From assembly GCA_021159885.1 (NCBI GenBank), contig JAGHDO010000049.1, forward strand, positions 1 to 36,987: a DNA stretch of 36,987 nt, read 5' to 3'. Under the pieces are notes generated by a model. The model was not told the origin of the DNA. It ran no database searches and worked only from the letters and a program-made list of their open reading frames with translations. The stretch comes from Synergistota bacterium (lineage in GTDB: Bacteria; Synergistota; GBS-1). The translations under genes were made by a program, and so were the position numbers. Positions 3,157 through 17,071 of this stretch are shown one piece after another. Every line of letters begins with the position of its first letter. The first letter of the stretch is position 1.

Positions 3157-3957
3157 CTATCTTACCTTAAGCTCTTTCAAAAAGAGAGGCGTTAAAACCC
3201 TTATATATGTCCCTTTCATTCCAAGGGATCTCGTCTCTATTATACCAGCGCTCTCAAGCTTTCTCAAAGCATTGACTATAACGGAGCGCGTAACACCTAT
3301 CTCTCCTGCTATCTTGCTTGCCACAACTACCCCCTCACTATCATCGAACTTTTCGAAGATTCTTTTCATCGCAGAAAGCTCAGAGTAAGAAAGCGTTCTT
3401 AAAGCCAGCTGAACGGTAAGTTGCTCTCTCGCTAATCTCTCTATATCCTCGTTTCTCGCTCTAAGTATCTCCATTCCCACTATGGTAGCTCCATACTCAG
3501 CTAAGACTATATCAGCGGTTTTGAACTCCTCATTGAAGCGAGCTACAACGAGCGTGCCGAGCCGCTCCCCACCTCCAACTATTGGGAAAAAACTAACAAA
3601 TTTCTGGGGATACGGACAAGGCAAATTAGCATCATATGAGCACTTCCCTCCCCTGGATGTCTGATTGACCATCGGTTCCATAATTCTCAAAAGCTTTTCA
3701 TTATAGTCATCTGGAAATTTACCTTCCTTCAGTATCTCTTCCATCTTGGAACACTCGTAATCGTTCAAAAGTCCATAACCCAGTATCTTGCCATCCTTAT
3801 CAGAGATATAGACGTTAGCTTCGATAACCTCGCTTAATATCCCGGCGATACTCATAAAGTCAACTCCACGACCTGCCTGACGCTGAATCAGCCTGCTTAT
3901 CTTGCGCTCCCTCTTGAGAAGCTCCTCCAAAGTCAAGACGTTGGCCCTATCCACCAT
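3157..3957 (-). CDS. codY: GTP-sensing transcriptional pleiotropic repressor CodY
   Basis: A 266-residue CodY. The N-terminal part is the GAF-type ligand domain that senses branched-chain amino acids in the family. The C-terminal winged helix carries the highly conserved GVTRSVIVNALRKLESAG (about residues 219-236) and RSLGMKGTYIRV. CodY represses amino-acid uptake, catabolism and often motility genes while GTP and branched-chain amino acids are plentiful. The start is ATG with AAGGAGGGG upstream. It lies between hslU and flgB, exactly as in the Bacillus codVWXY-flg locus. Presence of CodY is the strongest single taxonomic clue in the window. Confidence 0.97.
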   Translation of the reverse strand: MVDRANVLTLEELLKRERKISRLIQRQAGRGVDFMSIAGILSEVIEANVYISDKDGKILGYGLLNDYECSKMEEILKEGKFPDDYNEKLLRIMEPMVNQTSRGGKCSYDANLPCPYPQKFVSFFPIVGGGERLGTLVVARFNEEFKTADIVLAEYGATIVGMEILRARNEDIERLAREQLTVQLALRTLSYSELSAMKRIFEKFDDSEGVVVASKIAGEIGVTRSVIVNALRKLESAGIIETRSLGMKGTYIRVLTPLFLKELKVR

Positions 3958-10883: not shown

Positions 10884-11223
10884 CTATGATACCACCCTCT
10901 CCTAAGATATTCTTGTAGTGAGTTAGACTCACCCCAGATATGGCAATAAGATCAAATCTAAAGGGCAAATCAAGCCAGCCCTTAGACGCAAGATATATCA
11001 TGGCAGCTTTATAAAATCTTCTTGCCTTAAGAGAGGTAAAAGAGCTCTCGGCTTTTCCTCTTTTCCTGCTTTTTACCTCAACGAATACTATGGTATCTCC
11101 ATCCCTTGCAACTATATCTATCTCTCCAAAACGGGTGTTATAGTTCCTCTCTAAAATCTTAAGTCCCTTTTCCCTGAGGTAAGAAGCAGATCTCTCCTCA
11201 GCGCTCGCTCCATTATTTCTCAC
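10876..11223 (-). CDS. yraN: UPF0102/YraN family endonuclease-like protein
   Basis: A 115-residue restriction-endonuclease-fold protein. It has the YraN pattern: ERSASYLREKGLKILERNY, then FGEIDIVARDGDTIVFVEVK with the putative metal-binding D and E...K residues. The cellular role is not established; it often lies beside rnhB, comM and dprA. The start is GTG, overlapping the stop of the HD-GYP gene in a GTGA junction. Length is normal for the family. Confidence 0.93.
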   Translation of the reverse strand: MRNNGASAEERSASYLREKGLKILERNYNTRFGEIDIVARDGDTIVFVEVKSRKRGKAESSFTSLKARRFYKAAMIYLASKGWLDLPFRFDLIAISGVSLTHYKNILGEGGIIVG

Positions 11224-12317
11224 TCTATCACTTCCTCTATCGTTATGCTGGGCTCCGTTGAAAGATCAAGCTCAACCGGAAGATCAAGTTCCTTCCCTTC
11301 GGAACTCTTAATTATCTTAACCACAGGCCTCATAGGGAGCCCTCTTTTTACCTGAGAGACGACAGCTATTTCACCAGTAGACAGTCTTACCGTGGTTCCA
11401 ATAGGATACACAGCAACATTTTTCAAGAAAGCTTCAACGATTTCTTTATCGAAGAAGGTGCCTGACATCGCCATTAAAGCCTCCACCGCCTCGTTGGGCT
11501 TAACTCTGGATTGAAAAGGGGATCCGGAAACGAGGATATCATAGACATTGACAACAGCAGCGACCTTAGCAAGTTCATGAATTTGGGAACCGGATAAACC
11601 CCGTGGATATCCTTTTCCATCCAGCCTCTCGTGATGCTGATAAACCACATGAGCAGAAAGAAGAGAAACCCCCTGAGCGTTTTTAAGAAGCTCATATCCA
11701 GTAACCGGATGCCTCCTTATAAGGGGATTTTTTTCCTCCTCAAGCAGCTTTTGGACGGAAAGGATCGCATCATCGAGGAAAGCCTTACCTATGTCATGCA
11801 TGAAAAGCCCCAATCCAAGACAGAACAGCTTGTCCGTCTTATAGCCAAGCGTTAAGCCAGTCATCATGCCTAATACCGTCGTATTTACCATATGTCCATA
11901 AAGAAAGTCATCCAAGCTTCTGATATCTATGAAGCTATATACCGCCTGCTTTGTCCTGAAAACTTCCTGGAGAAGTGAGTTAACGATAGATTTGACTCGT
12001 TCAAGATCCTCACTTATATCTATTTCGCTAATCTTCCTGTTATAAAATCTCCCCTCTCTCCTAACCTTAAGAACTATTCTTCGCGCTTCTTGAATCGCCA
12101 TAGTTCTAACCTTGTCCAGTATAAGATCCTCCGCCTTTATATCCTCTATCATCTTTTCCTCTATATATATAACTGGTATACCTATCTTAAGAAGCCTCTC
12201 TATATGTCTCTTCTCAAGAACCATCCCCCTTCTTAAAAGGGGTCTCCCATCCGATGTATAAACCGTCTTACCAACAACCATACCCTCTTCAAGCCGCGTT
12301 ACAGGAACACACTTCAC
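11220..12317 (-). CDS. HD-GYP domain cyclic-di-GMP phosphodiesterase-like protein
   Basis: The protein has an N-terminal segment of the VPVTRLEEGMVVGKTVY type (DUF3391-like, common ahead of HD-GYP) and a full HD-GYP domain, with MHDIGK at about 173-178 and HHERLDGKGYP at about 228-238. HD-GYP proteins hydrolyse c-di-GMP, linking it to motility control. The reading frame opens 28 codons further upstream inside the FlhB-like gene. I take GTG at 12317, directly after that gene's stop, because it gives the conserved KCVPVTRLEEGM start. About 365 residues. Cotranscription with flagellar and FlhB-like genes fits a motility role, but that is inference. Confidence 0.88.
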   Translation of the reverse strand: MKCVPVTRLEEGMVVGKTVYTSDGRPLLRRGMVLEKRHIERLLKIGIPVIYIEEKMIEDIKAEDLILDKVRTMAIQEARRIVLKVRREGRFYNRKISEIDISEDLERVKSIVNSLLQEVFRTKQAVYSFIDIRSLDDFLYGHMVNTTVLGMMTGLTLGYKTDKLFCLGLGLFMHDIGKAFLDDAILSVQKLLEEEKNPLIRRHPVTGYELLKNAQGVSLLSAHVVYQHHERLDGKGYPRGLSGSQIHELAKVAAVVNVYDILVSGSPFQSRVKPNEAVEALMAMSGTFFDKEIVEAFLKNVAVYPIGTTVRLSTGEIAVVSQVKRGLPMRPVVKIIKSSEGKELDLPVELDLSTEPSITIEEVIE

Positions 12318-12318
12318 G

Positions 12319-12582
12319 CTACACCACTTCCTCCCTAAGCCTATATATAAAGGCAAGCACCTCCGCCACCGCCTTATAAAGCTCAGGCGGGATCTCATCA
12401 CCTATATCTACCTTCAGAAGAAGCTCAACGAGATCAGGGTCCTCATATATGGGGATGTCATACTCCCTTGCTATTTCTATAATCTTCTCGGCTATTTTCC
12501 CTTTTCCCGAAGCAATCACACGAGGAGCCCTGTCCTCGCGCTCATCGTACTTTAGGGCAGCTGCCTTCCTTAAATCACTCAT
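12319..12582 (-). CDS. FlhB cytoplasmic-tail paralogue (YlqH-like)
   Basis: An 87-residue protein matching only the extreme cytoplasmic part of FlhB: AAALKYDEREDRAPRVIASG, then DIPIYEDPDLVELLL and DIGDEIPPELYKAVAEVLAFIYRL. In FlhB this segment follows the NPTH autocleavage site. Here the protein starts just after the position where cleavage would occur, so it mimics the released fragment. Full-length FlhB is not in this window. It overlaps the upstream FliK-like gene in an ATGA junction. Bacillus ylqH has the same size and neighbours (recalled). Function unknown; a part in substrate-specificity switching of flagellar export is a reasonable guess. Confidence 0.88.
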   Translation of the reverse strand: MSDLRKAAALKYDEREDRAPRVIASGKGKIAEKIIEIAREYDIPIYEDPDLVELLLKVDIGDEIPPELYKAVAEVLAFIYRLREEVV

Positions 12583-13658
12583 ATTCTTAAATCCAACCCC
12601 TCGCTTTCGATTTCCCGGCTTAGGACCATGGGCCTTGATGACAGACCTCCTACCTTATAGCCTGCAGATTGAAGACTGGAAAGTAGCTCCGAAAGCCTTC
12701 TTCTTAAAGCGAATAATGTCTTTTCATTTTCAGCTTCAAATGTTATCCATATCTTACCTCTAAAGAGGTAAAAGAGCACCCTTATCTTTCCAAGGGTTTT
12801 AAGCTCAAGTATAAGCTCATACTTTTCTTCCTCTCCCTTTGAAGATCTTAAAGCCTTATGCTTTTTAAGAAGCGGTATTGATAGATCTCTTTCCCCAGAA
12901 AGCAGAGGAAACCAGAGATATATGAACCATGCTTCTTCCCTTGATGGCAAGCTTAAAAGCCTTGGCAAGAATATCCACCCCAGAAGCCTAACGGAATCCG
13001 GTTCTCCAGCTCTAAGCAAAAGCTCGCTCAGTCCTCCAAACTTCAAGATCCCACTCTTGGAAAGAAAGTTCGCTATAGCACTTGAAAGCTCCCCATCAAC
13101 TTTAGGAATTATGGATTTAAGAAAAGCCCGTAGACTTTCATCTCCAGAGAGCAACATTTTAAGGATGAGCTCTCTCAAGCTCGAAAGATCCCCAAGGCTG
13201 AGAAGAAACTTCAGCAACCCGGATGAAAAACCAAGCTTAAGCGATAAAAATCTAATAAGTTCAAGCGAAAAATATGGATCCAAGCTGTCTGAAATAAGCT
13301 TCGCTAAGAGTCCAACATCTCCCCTCTTAAAACTAACCCCAAGAGATCTTAAAAACTTATATGAGAGTCTCGCTTCCGGGGTATCCCTAACGCCAAGCTT
13401 AAAAAATCCCTCATCAATATCTTCCTGAGAGAGAAGCTGAAGATGAAGCTTATTCCCTGATAGCCCCTTCACCCATAGAGAGACCCTGCTCCCCGGCTTA
13501 AGAAAAACTTTACTTTCCGCAGGAAAAACGACATCACCTACTTCAAGCAGAGGCATATTTCCCGCCTTGCCAACGACCCTCCCCTCTATAACCTTCCCTT
13601 TAAGCGGTAAAAGCCTGCTTAGAACCTCACGCGACGCACTTAACCTGAGTAAACTCAA
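12579..13658 (-). CDS. YlqG-like protein with a FliK-like C-terminal region
   Basis: A 359-residue leucine- and serine-rich protein without a signal peptide. Residues up to about 70 look beta-rich (KGKVIEGRVVGKAGNMPLLE), the centre is helical, and the C-terminal 80 residues have a pattern like the FliK hook-length domain: LELKTLGKIRVLFYLFRGKI, then WITFEAENEKT and LLSSLQSAGYKV. It lies between rnhB and the FlhB-tail gene, the place of ylqG in Bacillus. The start is TTG at 13658 with GGTGA six bases upstream. The FliK relation is from pattern only and is moderate in strength. Confidence 0.65.
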   Translation of the reverse strand: MSLLRLSASREVLSRLLPLKGKVIEGRVVGKAGNMPLLEVGDVVFPAESKVFLKPGSRVSLWVKGLSGNKLHLQLLSQEDIDEGFFKLGVRDTPEARLSYKFLRSLGVSFKRGDVGLLAKLISDSLDPYFSLELIRFLSLKLGFSSGLLKFLLSLGDLSSLRELILKMLLSGDESLRAFLKSIIPKVDGELSSAIANFLSKSGILKFGGLSELLLRAGEPDSVRLLGWIFLPRLLSLPSREEAWFIYLWFPLLSGERDLSIPLLKKHKALRSSKGEEEKYELILELKTLGKIRVLFYLFRGKIWITFEAENEKTLFALRRRLSELLSSLQSAGYKVGGLSSRPMVLSREIESEGLDLRI

Positions 13659-13659
13659 A

Positions 13660-14247
13660 TCATTTCACCACTCCTTTAAAGGAAAGTCTATGGATTGGCG
13701 AAGGACCATAACGCATGATAGCTTCTCTGTGTTCCCTCGTGGGATATCCCTTATGCTTGGCAAAGCCATATTGAGGGTAAATTTTGTCCCAAGCACACAT
13801 TATCCTGTCTCTTATCACCTTAGCGACTATTGAAGCGGCTGATATAACCGTATATTTGCTATCCCCCTTGGGTATCGCTTTTTGAGGAATATTTATGTCA
13901 GGTATGGGGTGAATGCCATCCACAAGTACGAGTTCAGGAACCAAGGTAAGCTTTAGGACCGCCTTTCTCATAGCTTGAAGAGATGCCCAGAGAATATCGT
14001 TAGCATCTATCTCACGTGGACTAATGAGGGATATGCCTATAGATAGAGCTTCTCTCCTTAATAGCTCAAATAGCTTCTCTCTCTTGAGCGGACTCAGGCA
14101 CTTCGAGTCTTTTATTTCCTCATTATTATATCCCTTCGGCAATATAACAGCAGCTGCTACCACGGGACCTGCGAGAGGCCCTCTACCTGCTTCATCAACC
14201 CCCGCCACGAGGAGGGAGTTCAAGCGTAAACCTTCCAAGCCTTCCAT
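13660..14247 (-). CDS. rnhB: Ribonuclease HII
   Basis: A 195-residue RNase HII. The catalytic motif GVDEAGRGPLAGPVVAAAVI lies at about residues 16-35 (D18 and E19), with the third acidic site in LVLVDG and a further conserved segment SAASIVAKVIRDR. It removes RNA from RNA-DNA hybrids, including single ribonucleotides. ATG at 14247 lacks a clear Shine-Dalgarno; a TTG eight codons in (14223) has GGAAGG seven bases before it and may be the true start. It overlaps rbgA by about 50 bp with the longer start. Confidence 0.95.
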   Translation of the reverse strand: MEGLEGLRLNSLLVAGVDEAGRGPLAGPVVAAAVILPKGYNNEEIKDSKCLSPLKREKLFELLRREALSIGISLISPREIDANDILWASLQAMRKAVLKLTLVPELVLVDGIHPIPDINIPQKAIPKGDSKYTVISAASIVAKVIRDRIMCAWDKIYPQYGFAKHKGYPTREHREAIMRYGPSPIHRLSFKGVVK

Positions 14248-15826: not shown

Positions 15827-17071
15827 TTAAACGCTTTTAAAAAGTCTATCCAGAACCACGGACACCGCAGATCTCACCGAGAGGTGATTATAATCGCTTT
15901 TCCATTCTATAGGTTCCAAGACATAATCCGACCAGCCTTTTACCTCCTCCGCAAGTCCCCAGCCTGTTCCAAAAAGGAGCAAAAGAGGCTTTTCCTCGAG
16001 AAGCAGCTTCCACTTAAGGTCCTGAAAGGATATCACACGCGAGGAAGCAATCGCACTCGTTGAAACTACTATAGGCTTTTTCCTTTCTCTCTCCTCTATT
16101 CTCCTCACCGTTTCCTCAAGCGATGGGACAGGTTTCACCCTCTCTAAGGCTTCCTTTCTATCGGGATTAAGGAGCGCGCCTACTCCCTTGGTCCAATGCT
16201 CCACGATTCTTTTAACTATCTCTCTCTGAGCCCGTACGGGAGTTATTATAAAGAATCTCCTTACACCATAGGTTCTGCAACAACGCGATATATCATGTAT
16301 GTCAAGATTAGCCACAGTTGTAGTTATTATCTCCCGGTGCTGATTGTAAACTGGATAGTGCACAAGCCCCACATAAAATCCCTTTTCCATGTATTTCCGC
16401 AACGATATCTTATCGATAAGCTCTGGCCGTCTCTTAAACGTTCTACGTAAAGCCTCTCTTTTTCTCCACCTCTCTACCTCACCGTGATCTCCAGAAAGCA
16501 AAACCTCTGGAACCTTAAGTCCCTTAAACTCTCTCGGCCTCGTGTAATGCGGAAAATCCAGCAATCCATCATAAAAAGAATCTCTCCTTGGAGAATCCTC
16601 ACAACCGAGCACGCCGGGAATAAGTCTCGAAACGGCATCTATTATAACCATTGCGGGGATTTCCCCTCCGGTCAAAACGTAATCCCCTATTGAAATCTCC
16701 TCATCCACAAGCTTGGTTATCCTCTCATCTATACCTTCATAATGACCACATATAAGAAGAAGATGTTCCCTTTCCGAAAGCTCTTTAGCCAATTCCTGAT
16801 TAAATATCCGACCCTGAGGTGAGAGAAGAATTCTATAAGGCTTACCTGGTACGCTCTCTATCGCTCTCCAGAAGGGCTCAACCTTAAGAAGCATACCTCC
16901 TCCTCCACCGTAGGGATATTCATCAACGATCCTATGTTTATCGGTAGCGAAATCCCGAGGATTATGAAAAAAAACCTCTATTAAGCCCTTCTTGAGAGCC
17001 CTATTCAATATACTACAACCTATAACGCCCTCAAACATCTCGGGGAAAAGAGTTATAACATCGAATCTCAT
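15827..17071 (-). CDS. trmD: tRNA (guanine-N1)-methyltransferase TrmD fused to a second SPOUT-like RNA methyltransferase domain
   Basis: Residues 1 to about 230 are a complete Trm[10 protein letters not shown] at 52-60, the knot segment [13 protein letters not shown] at 128-140, and [20 protein letters not shown]. TrmD makes m1G37 in tRNA, preventing frameshifts. From about residue 230 to 414 there is an extra domain beginning [20 protein letters not shown] and [21 protein letters not shown], the pattern of the family typified by Thermotoga TM1570 (PF09936 as I recall). Standard TrmD is about 240 residues. There is no stop between the halves, so it is a true fusion. The substrate of the second domain is unknown. 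Confidence 0.95.

Follow-up and report, generated by a model that had tools for sequence, protein, structure and literature searches.

A FliK-like protein encoded together with a stand-alone C-terminal fragment of FlhB: a candidate auxiliary module for flagellar export

The stretch of DNA under study, hereafter called the window, comprises 36,987 nucleotides of a Synergistota bacterium (GenBank assembly GCA_021159885.1, contig JAGHDO010000049.1, positions 1 to 36,987 of the forward strand). Its reverse strand carries an overlapping gene pair, which an earlier note prepared from the sequence alone had described as coding for a FliK-like protein and an equivalent of the FlhB tail, and both reading frames are found in this arrangement, sharing four nucleotides. 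The features of the locus are the following.

12319 to 12582, reverse strand: small gene, coding for an 87-residue paralogue of the FlhB C-terminal fragment (FlhX/TIGR00789 family)
12523 to 12528, reverse strand: codons of A19-P20 of the small protein, aligned to A286-P287 of Salmonella FlhB (numbering of 3b0z_B), one half of the early-substrate pocket
12355 to 12366, reverse strand: codons for A73 to L76, which the same alignment pairs with FlhB A341 to L344, the second half of the pocket
12579 to 12582, reverse strand: ATGA stop/start overlap of the two genes, 4 nt, from the listing of open reading frames
12579 to 13658, reverse strand: FliK-like gene, coding for 359 residues from a TTG start, with a C-terminal switch (T3S4) domain
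13419 to 13634, reverse strand: predicted N-terminal OB/S1-like beta domain, residues 9-80 of the FliK-like protein
12639 to 12845, reverse strand: FliK-type switch (T3S4) domain, residues 272-340
12582 to 12596, reverse strand: extreme C-terminus (LDLRI) of the FliK-like protein, whose fourth-last residue is D or N in most relatives
13660 to 14247: rnhB, flanking the FliK-like gene
11220 to 12401 as listed: HD-GYP open reading frame (PF13487), following the small gene

The small protein matches the TIGR00789 model (flhB_rel) with 123.8 bits at a cut-off of 117.35, covering positions 2-83 of 84, and in a profile search it matches PF01312 with 84.5 bits at family positions 262-335 only. Alignment with full-length FlhB places its start at the autocleavage site and reveals neither the N-P-T-H sequence nor a membrane part, in line with the earlier proposal that it equals the FlhB fragment past that site. 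FlhB proper, which requires both a transmembrane domain and N-P-T-H, was thus rejected as its identity. In the predicted structure (pLDDT 84.5), the protein resembles the cytoplasmic domains of FlhB, with 3b0z_B and 3b1s as top PDB matches and a TM score of 0.84 to 3b0z_B. It belongs to the FlhX family, already known, which includes HP1575 of H. pylori and Cj0848c of C. jejuni and in which, as in the genome of the window, a free C-terminal fragment occurs in addition to a full FlhB. We found no feature distinguishing the window protein from this family, the 87 small proteins of our alignment excluding HP1575 and Cj0848c. B. subtilis YlqH is presumably another member, with ylqG and ylqH as the orthologues of the pair in that species, and we take COG2257 to be the same family. 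In an excerpt of a 2006 study, COG2257 was flagged as perhaps flagellar (PMC1489924), and a passage of another report describes FlhX as absent in some Actinobacteria (PMC10746217).

The upstream protein ends in a FliK-like domain, as had been read from its sequence, since the profile comparison suggested at the time detects PF02120 (Flg_hook) at residues 272-340 with 34.2 bits at a cut-off of 29.8; NCBIfam models gave no match at E ≤ 1. Its predicted structure has a mean pLDDT of 76.7. Residues 1-170, comprising the OB domain and helices, are modelled with all ten-residue blocks at 71 or above, residues 171-270 are uncertain (block means 48-65) and the tail falls below 50. The poor modelling of residues 171-270 is compatible with a flexible middle of the protein. 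For the C-terminal domain, Foldseek ranked the SS domain of PscP first (5cuk, E 4.1e-3) and the C-terminal domain of FliK second (2rrl, E 1.7e-2), support for the fold that is weak, as the model gave no match at E 0.001 or better. VIA-align returned Z-scores of 6.5 to 5cuk (for residues 265-344) and 5.2 to 2rrl.

The window protein resembles FliK in its C-terminal switch domain, by a PF02120 score that exceeds the cut-off and a match of the fold to 2rrl, whereas an OB-like domain is found at the place of the long disordered N-terminal ruler of FliK. In Synergistota, the switch domain is followed by 13-19 residues in FliK-like proteins compared to 37-62 in 13 canonical FliK sequences. Similarly, FliK proper is encoded among hook and rod genes, whereas the window gene is located elsewhere, with the rod genes 9 kb away. 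We refer to the protein as FliK-like rather than FliK because it differs from the latter in both its N-terminal part and the place of its gene. With the injectisome ruler PscP/YscP it has the fold of the switch domain in common, although no such ruler region is seen and the partner gene codes for a small FlhBCC-like protein. The fraction of hydrophobic residues preceding the switch domain is 0.43 in the window protein and 0.27 in the canonical FliK of a member of the same family (L068), with medians of 0.34 in 13 FliK-like and 0.26 in 13 canonical proteins, whose ranges overlap and which each include one sequence that is a fragment or start artefact (L067, L038).

Within the window, fliF, fliE and two rod genes (flgC and flgB by order) are located on the same strand 9-12 kb downstream of the pair, whereas the full-length flhB of the genome and its stronger fliK-domain match both reside on another contig (C92). 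The pair consequently lies outside the flagellar export genes, as the earlier note had stated, yet with other flagellar genes in the neighbourhood. The same note correctly placed an HD-GYP gene directly behind the pair; judged from the sequence, this gene more likely starts with a GTG at around 12317, just past the stop of the small gene, instead of the listed 12401. As a member of the module, the HD-GYP gene was rejected, since it adjoins the pair in only 4 of 46 loci (the window, L022, L023 and L024), all in the window's own family.

In Synergistota, the occurrence of the pair follows that of the flagellum. Among 61 genomes, the small gene was found in 45 of the 47 containing flhB and intact in none of the 14 lacking it (Fisher p 5e-12, with no correction for kinship), flhB being counted where FlhB extends beyond the C-terminal part (that of G005 is incomplete, lying at the end of its contig). 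Thirteen of the flhB-less genomes contain no small gene and the remaining one (G015) only a truncated remnant; the two flagellated genomes without small gene (G019, G055) belong to one genus. In the 15 pair-less genomes (the 13 with neither gene and the latter two), lepB, ylqF and rnhB are found in order throughout, with yraN next to rnhB in 14, and the 3.5-kb lepB-ylqF-rnhB loci contain no match to the FlhBCC profile. The pair has thus disappeared from a block of housekeeping genes that is conserved in other respects. G015 lacks the FliK-like gene and the 5' part of the small gene, whereas G018 from the same genus has both genes intact, and in genus g15 two genomes (G034, G047) contain flhB and the small gene and a third (G023) neither. 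Since these genomes differ within their genera, joint loss of the pair and the flagellum occurred repeatedly.

In 44 of the 45 Synergistota genomes with small gene, a second PF02120 match (E ≤ 0.05) is located within about 2 kb of it, 12 of these partner matches passing the curated cut-off; in the remaining genome (G027), an open reading frame of the right length adjoins the small gene without a Pfam match. Two deviations in spacing were observed. In genus g8 (L032, L036, L046, L061, L063), the pair genes are separated by about 1.2-1.3 kb devoid of a same-strand reading frame of at least 130 residues, and in G061 about 1.7 kb separate the small gene from the FliK-domain match.

For a view beyond the phylum, we used eight Synergistota small proteins as queries and kept the best 80 of 575 matches as named loci, a choice by which divergent small proteins are under-sampled. 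One of the 80 (L138) is a full FlhB, leaving 79 small-gene loci. The small proteins included in the phylogenetic tree span at least nine phyla (Synergistota, Atribacterota, Bacillota, Thermodesulfobacteriota, Planctomycetota, Pseudomonadota, Aquificota, Chloroflexota and Actinomycetota). In a PF01312 search of 41 whole genomes drawn from the same best 80 matches, most of them chosen for having the small gene, all contain a full-length FlhB in addition to a C-terminal-only match. Of 100 genomes from Pseudomonadota, the phylum of the Bradyrhizobium genome G099, 87 have a PF01312 match, which in every case includes a full-length protein; 26 contain this single match and 61 two or more, a few of which, among the second matches listed, are further full-length or partial copies. 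The small gene is not essential to the flagellum, since it is missing in G019, G055 and 26 genomes of Pseudomonadota. As a separate observation, the Desulforamulus genome G075 contains two small FlhB-like matches.

The tree, in which 87 small proteins were compared with 81 full-length FlhB sequences, groups the small proteins into one clade, with support values of 99/92 and recovery in 98% of the 200 bootstrap replicates, although it is based on only 82 columns and the bootstrap had not fully settled. The 168 sequences were obtained after removal of identical entries (244 to 228) and of those more than 0.78 alike within a label (228 to 168); short matches, L033 and the two copies L082 and L083 (of L024 and L022) were left out. 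An origin of the small protein by recent duplication of FlhB within the same genome, which we had considered, was rejected on this basis, as the small proteins group together and apart from full-length FlhB. At the level of sequence, the small protein is thereby established as an ancient paralogue of FlhBCC that is made in pre-cleaved form.

The association with a FliK-like gene extends over the same range. Two of the 79 loci are at contig edges, and in 73 of the other 77 an open reading frame of at least 200 residues ends no more than 250 nucleotides upstream of the small gene, one of them coding for a transposase (L102); four loci (L084, L096, L106, L119) have no adjacent partner. PF02120 is detected at E ≤ 0.01 in 52 of 59 chosen upstream proteins (the window and 58 loci), with one transposase among the seven misses, and 66 of the 73 adjacent upstream reading frames, a set that includes the transposase, have D or N as their fourth-last residue. 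These 52 of 59 proteins and the 44 of 45 Synergistota genomes imply that the small gene and its FliK-like neighbour are not together by chance. Same-strand rnhB, ylqF or yraN genes were recognized in 22 of the 54 loci that have 3 kb of flanking sequence on either side and in none of the other 32, in a count that used the window proteins at E 1e-4 on one strand and misses opposite-strand and divergent copies. With only 22 of 54 loci containing these genes, the pairing is not owed to their neighbourhood. Among the loci that we viewed, none with the pair genes fused was noticed.

Certain genomes depart from the common arrangement. In the two Desulfurobacteriaceae loci L096 and L119 the small gene has no adjacent FliK-like gene, and at E ≤ 0.01 one of their genomes (G069) contains no FliK-domain match and the other (G080) one that is weak and distant. 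Maledivibacter (G092) contains four FliK-domain matches, three of them within about 1 kb. In G062, G077, G084 and G090, the sole FliK-domain match at E ≤ 0.01 adjoins the small gene; the separate canonical FliK that was not detected in these four genomes may be missed due to incompleteness or divergence.

Related arrangements appear in the literature. In Nitratiruptor (Campylobacterota), flhX is named alongside fliK, the two being located apart from the main flagellar cluster as in the window, in a passing mention whose likeness to our pair is by description and not by sequence (excerpt of PMC9321776). In C. jejuni, the locus tag next to flhX Cj0848c is Cj0849c, a protein of only putative FliK-likeness, which an excerpt of PMC2764114 lists among genes with putative type III signals. 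Among open-licence PMC papers, where subscription journals are mostly missing, titles and starts of abstracts led us to none that treats the two genes as one module.

Further indications of function come from the residues that the small proteins have kept and lost. The four residues of the early-substrate pocket, as named for Salmonella FlhB in an excerpt of PMC13344023, all agree with the Salmonella sequence in 78 of the 87 small proteins and in 66 of the 81 full-length ones in our alignment. Conversely, residue 324 (Salmonella numbering) is missing in all 87 small proteins, R302 is replaced by I, L or V in 81, R320 by E or S in 56, Y323 by L, A or S in 60 and A319 by V in 56. With residue 324 gone and R320, Y323 and A319 mostly replaced, the small proteins have lost the LARXLY motif, which is itself only partly kept in full-length FlhB (R320 in 64 and Y323 in 53 of 81). 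Within this motif, the mutations Y323D of FlhB and Y317D of YscU were reported to suppress the loss of FliK and YscP, respectively (excerpt of PMC2615192).

FlhB and FliK together tell the growing flagellum to end hook building and to start the filament. In a 2026 study on Salmonella (PMC13344023), FliK is reported to eject FlhBCC and thereby to end early secretion, deletion of FlhBCC is reported to stop the export of hook protein and the action of FliK on FlhBCC is proposed to reside in its five C-terminal residues. A free second copy of the ejected fragment, mostly beside a second switch domain, is encoded in many other flagellated bacteria. We are confident that the pair constitutes an accessory module of flagellar export. 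An auxiliary module of the type III export gate offers the best reading of its role, because a free, pre-cleaved FlhBCC with pocket but without LARXLY is made together with a second switch domain; taken as a whole and in the steps detailed below, we favour this explanation tentatively, at somewhat less than an even chance. The auxiliary switch suggested in the earlier note thus persists as preferred interpretation, whereas its perception as a local oddity does not, since the small protein belongs to a named family distributed over at least nine phyla.

In the proposed mechanism, the small protein and the FliK-like protein would bind each other in the same way as FliK binds FlhBCC, and the small protein would be placed on the membrane part of FlhB once the latter's own fragment was ejected or lost. 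The resulting gate would still accept early substrates, outside the length control by FliK, with the FliK-like partner acting as loader or timer rather than as ruler. That the module would operate by replacing FlhBCC at the gate or by competing with it is plausible, if slightly less so than it is in doubt. If it did, the pair would offer a direct genetic handle on the reversibility of the switch and on the question why some flagellated bacteria do without the module. A bolder version, which we consider improbable at about one chance in four, describes the pair as an ancient and widespread second specificity switch, composed of a ruler-less FliK-like factor and a pre-cleaved FlhBCC. Here, the FlhBCC copy would be unable to be held in the early lock, and once the fragment of FlhB had been ejected by FliK, the gate could be capped or reset. 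The Salmonella-type scheme would in this case be a simplification, as it does without the pair, which to our knowledge is absent from Salmonella.

Several alternatives have to be weighed against a module at the gate. The small protein might merely back up FlhBCC, its FliK-like neighbour being a separate flagellar gene kept by operon structure. Judged by its title, a study by Wand et al. from 2006 reportedly describes HP1575 as such a FlhB 'spare part', permitting export when the CC domain of FlhB is deleted, and the pocket kept in most small proteins and the two Desulfurobacteriaceae loci without adjacent FliK-like gene agree with a backup. We nevertheless regard it as unlikely, at around one in five, since the FliK-like gene remains adjacent where other neighbours change, both genes are missing together in pair-less genomes and the loss of residue 324 is uniform, unlike in an identical spare. 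Slightly less probable still is a function as decoy or brake, where the small protein would sequester FliK, or else rod and hook subunits, within the cytoplasm and thereby delay the switch, and the FliK-like protein would titrate or release it. A protein that starts at the cleavage site, has no membrane part and retains the docking pocket without LARXLY would suit this role, which however would not need the lasting pairing with a second switch domain.

The remaining two explanations find less room in the data. The OB/S1-like domain could bind RNA and the T3S4 domain bring messages of early substrates, or ribosomes, to the gate. This is suggested by the fold predicted for residues 9-80, by OB-type Pfam domain matches in a few of the 59 upstream proteins and by the match of the FliK-like family to the profile of ribosomal protein S1, which is weak (E 0.00067 for the whole sequence, 0.26 for the best stretch) and closely followed in rank by designed and helical proteins. 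The Z-scores of the fold, up to 6.6, are in a range that VIA-align calls common, the typical aromatic patch of S1 was not seen by eye in the window protein and OB folds bind proteins as well, making such a link to translation decidedly improbable. Even less credit is due to a separate, non-flagellar task that would re-use both domains. The neighbours lepB, ylqF, rnhB and yraN are housekeeping genes, as might be anticipated in such a case, but the small gene was never found without a full-length FlhB, neither in the 41 whole genomes nor in the 87 genomes of Pseudomonadota with matches, and in Synergistota the pair was lost with the flagella, save for the remnant in G015.

The canonical FlhB of the genomes encoding the pair shows a variation of its own. 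In the window's family (L067, L068, L237, L238), the cleavage motif reads NPVM in place of NPTH. H272 is absent in 29 of 93 FlhB sequences from genomes with the small gene compared to none of 23 from genomes without, and N-P is present in all 116 sampled sequences. As 25 of the 29 are from Synergistota, these losses are not independent, and we treat them only as a lead that the small protein may relieve FlhB.

Two observations in the window concern other genes. The reading frame at 15827-17071 combines TrmD (PF01746) with another RNA methyltransferase domain (PF09936) in one fused protein, and the gene at 3157-3957 codes for a homologue of CodY above the NCBIfam cut-off, thus placing a regulator that is best known from Bacillota in a genome of Synergistota.
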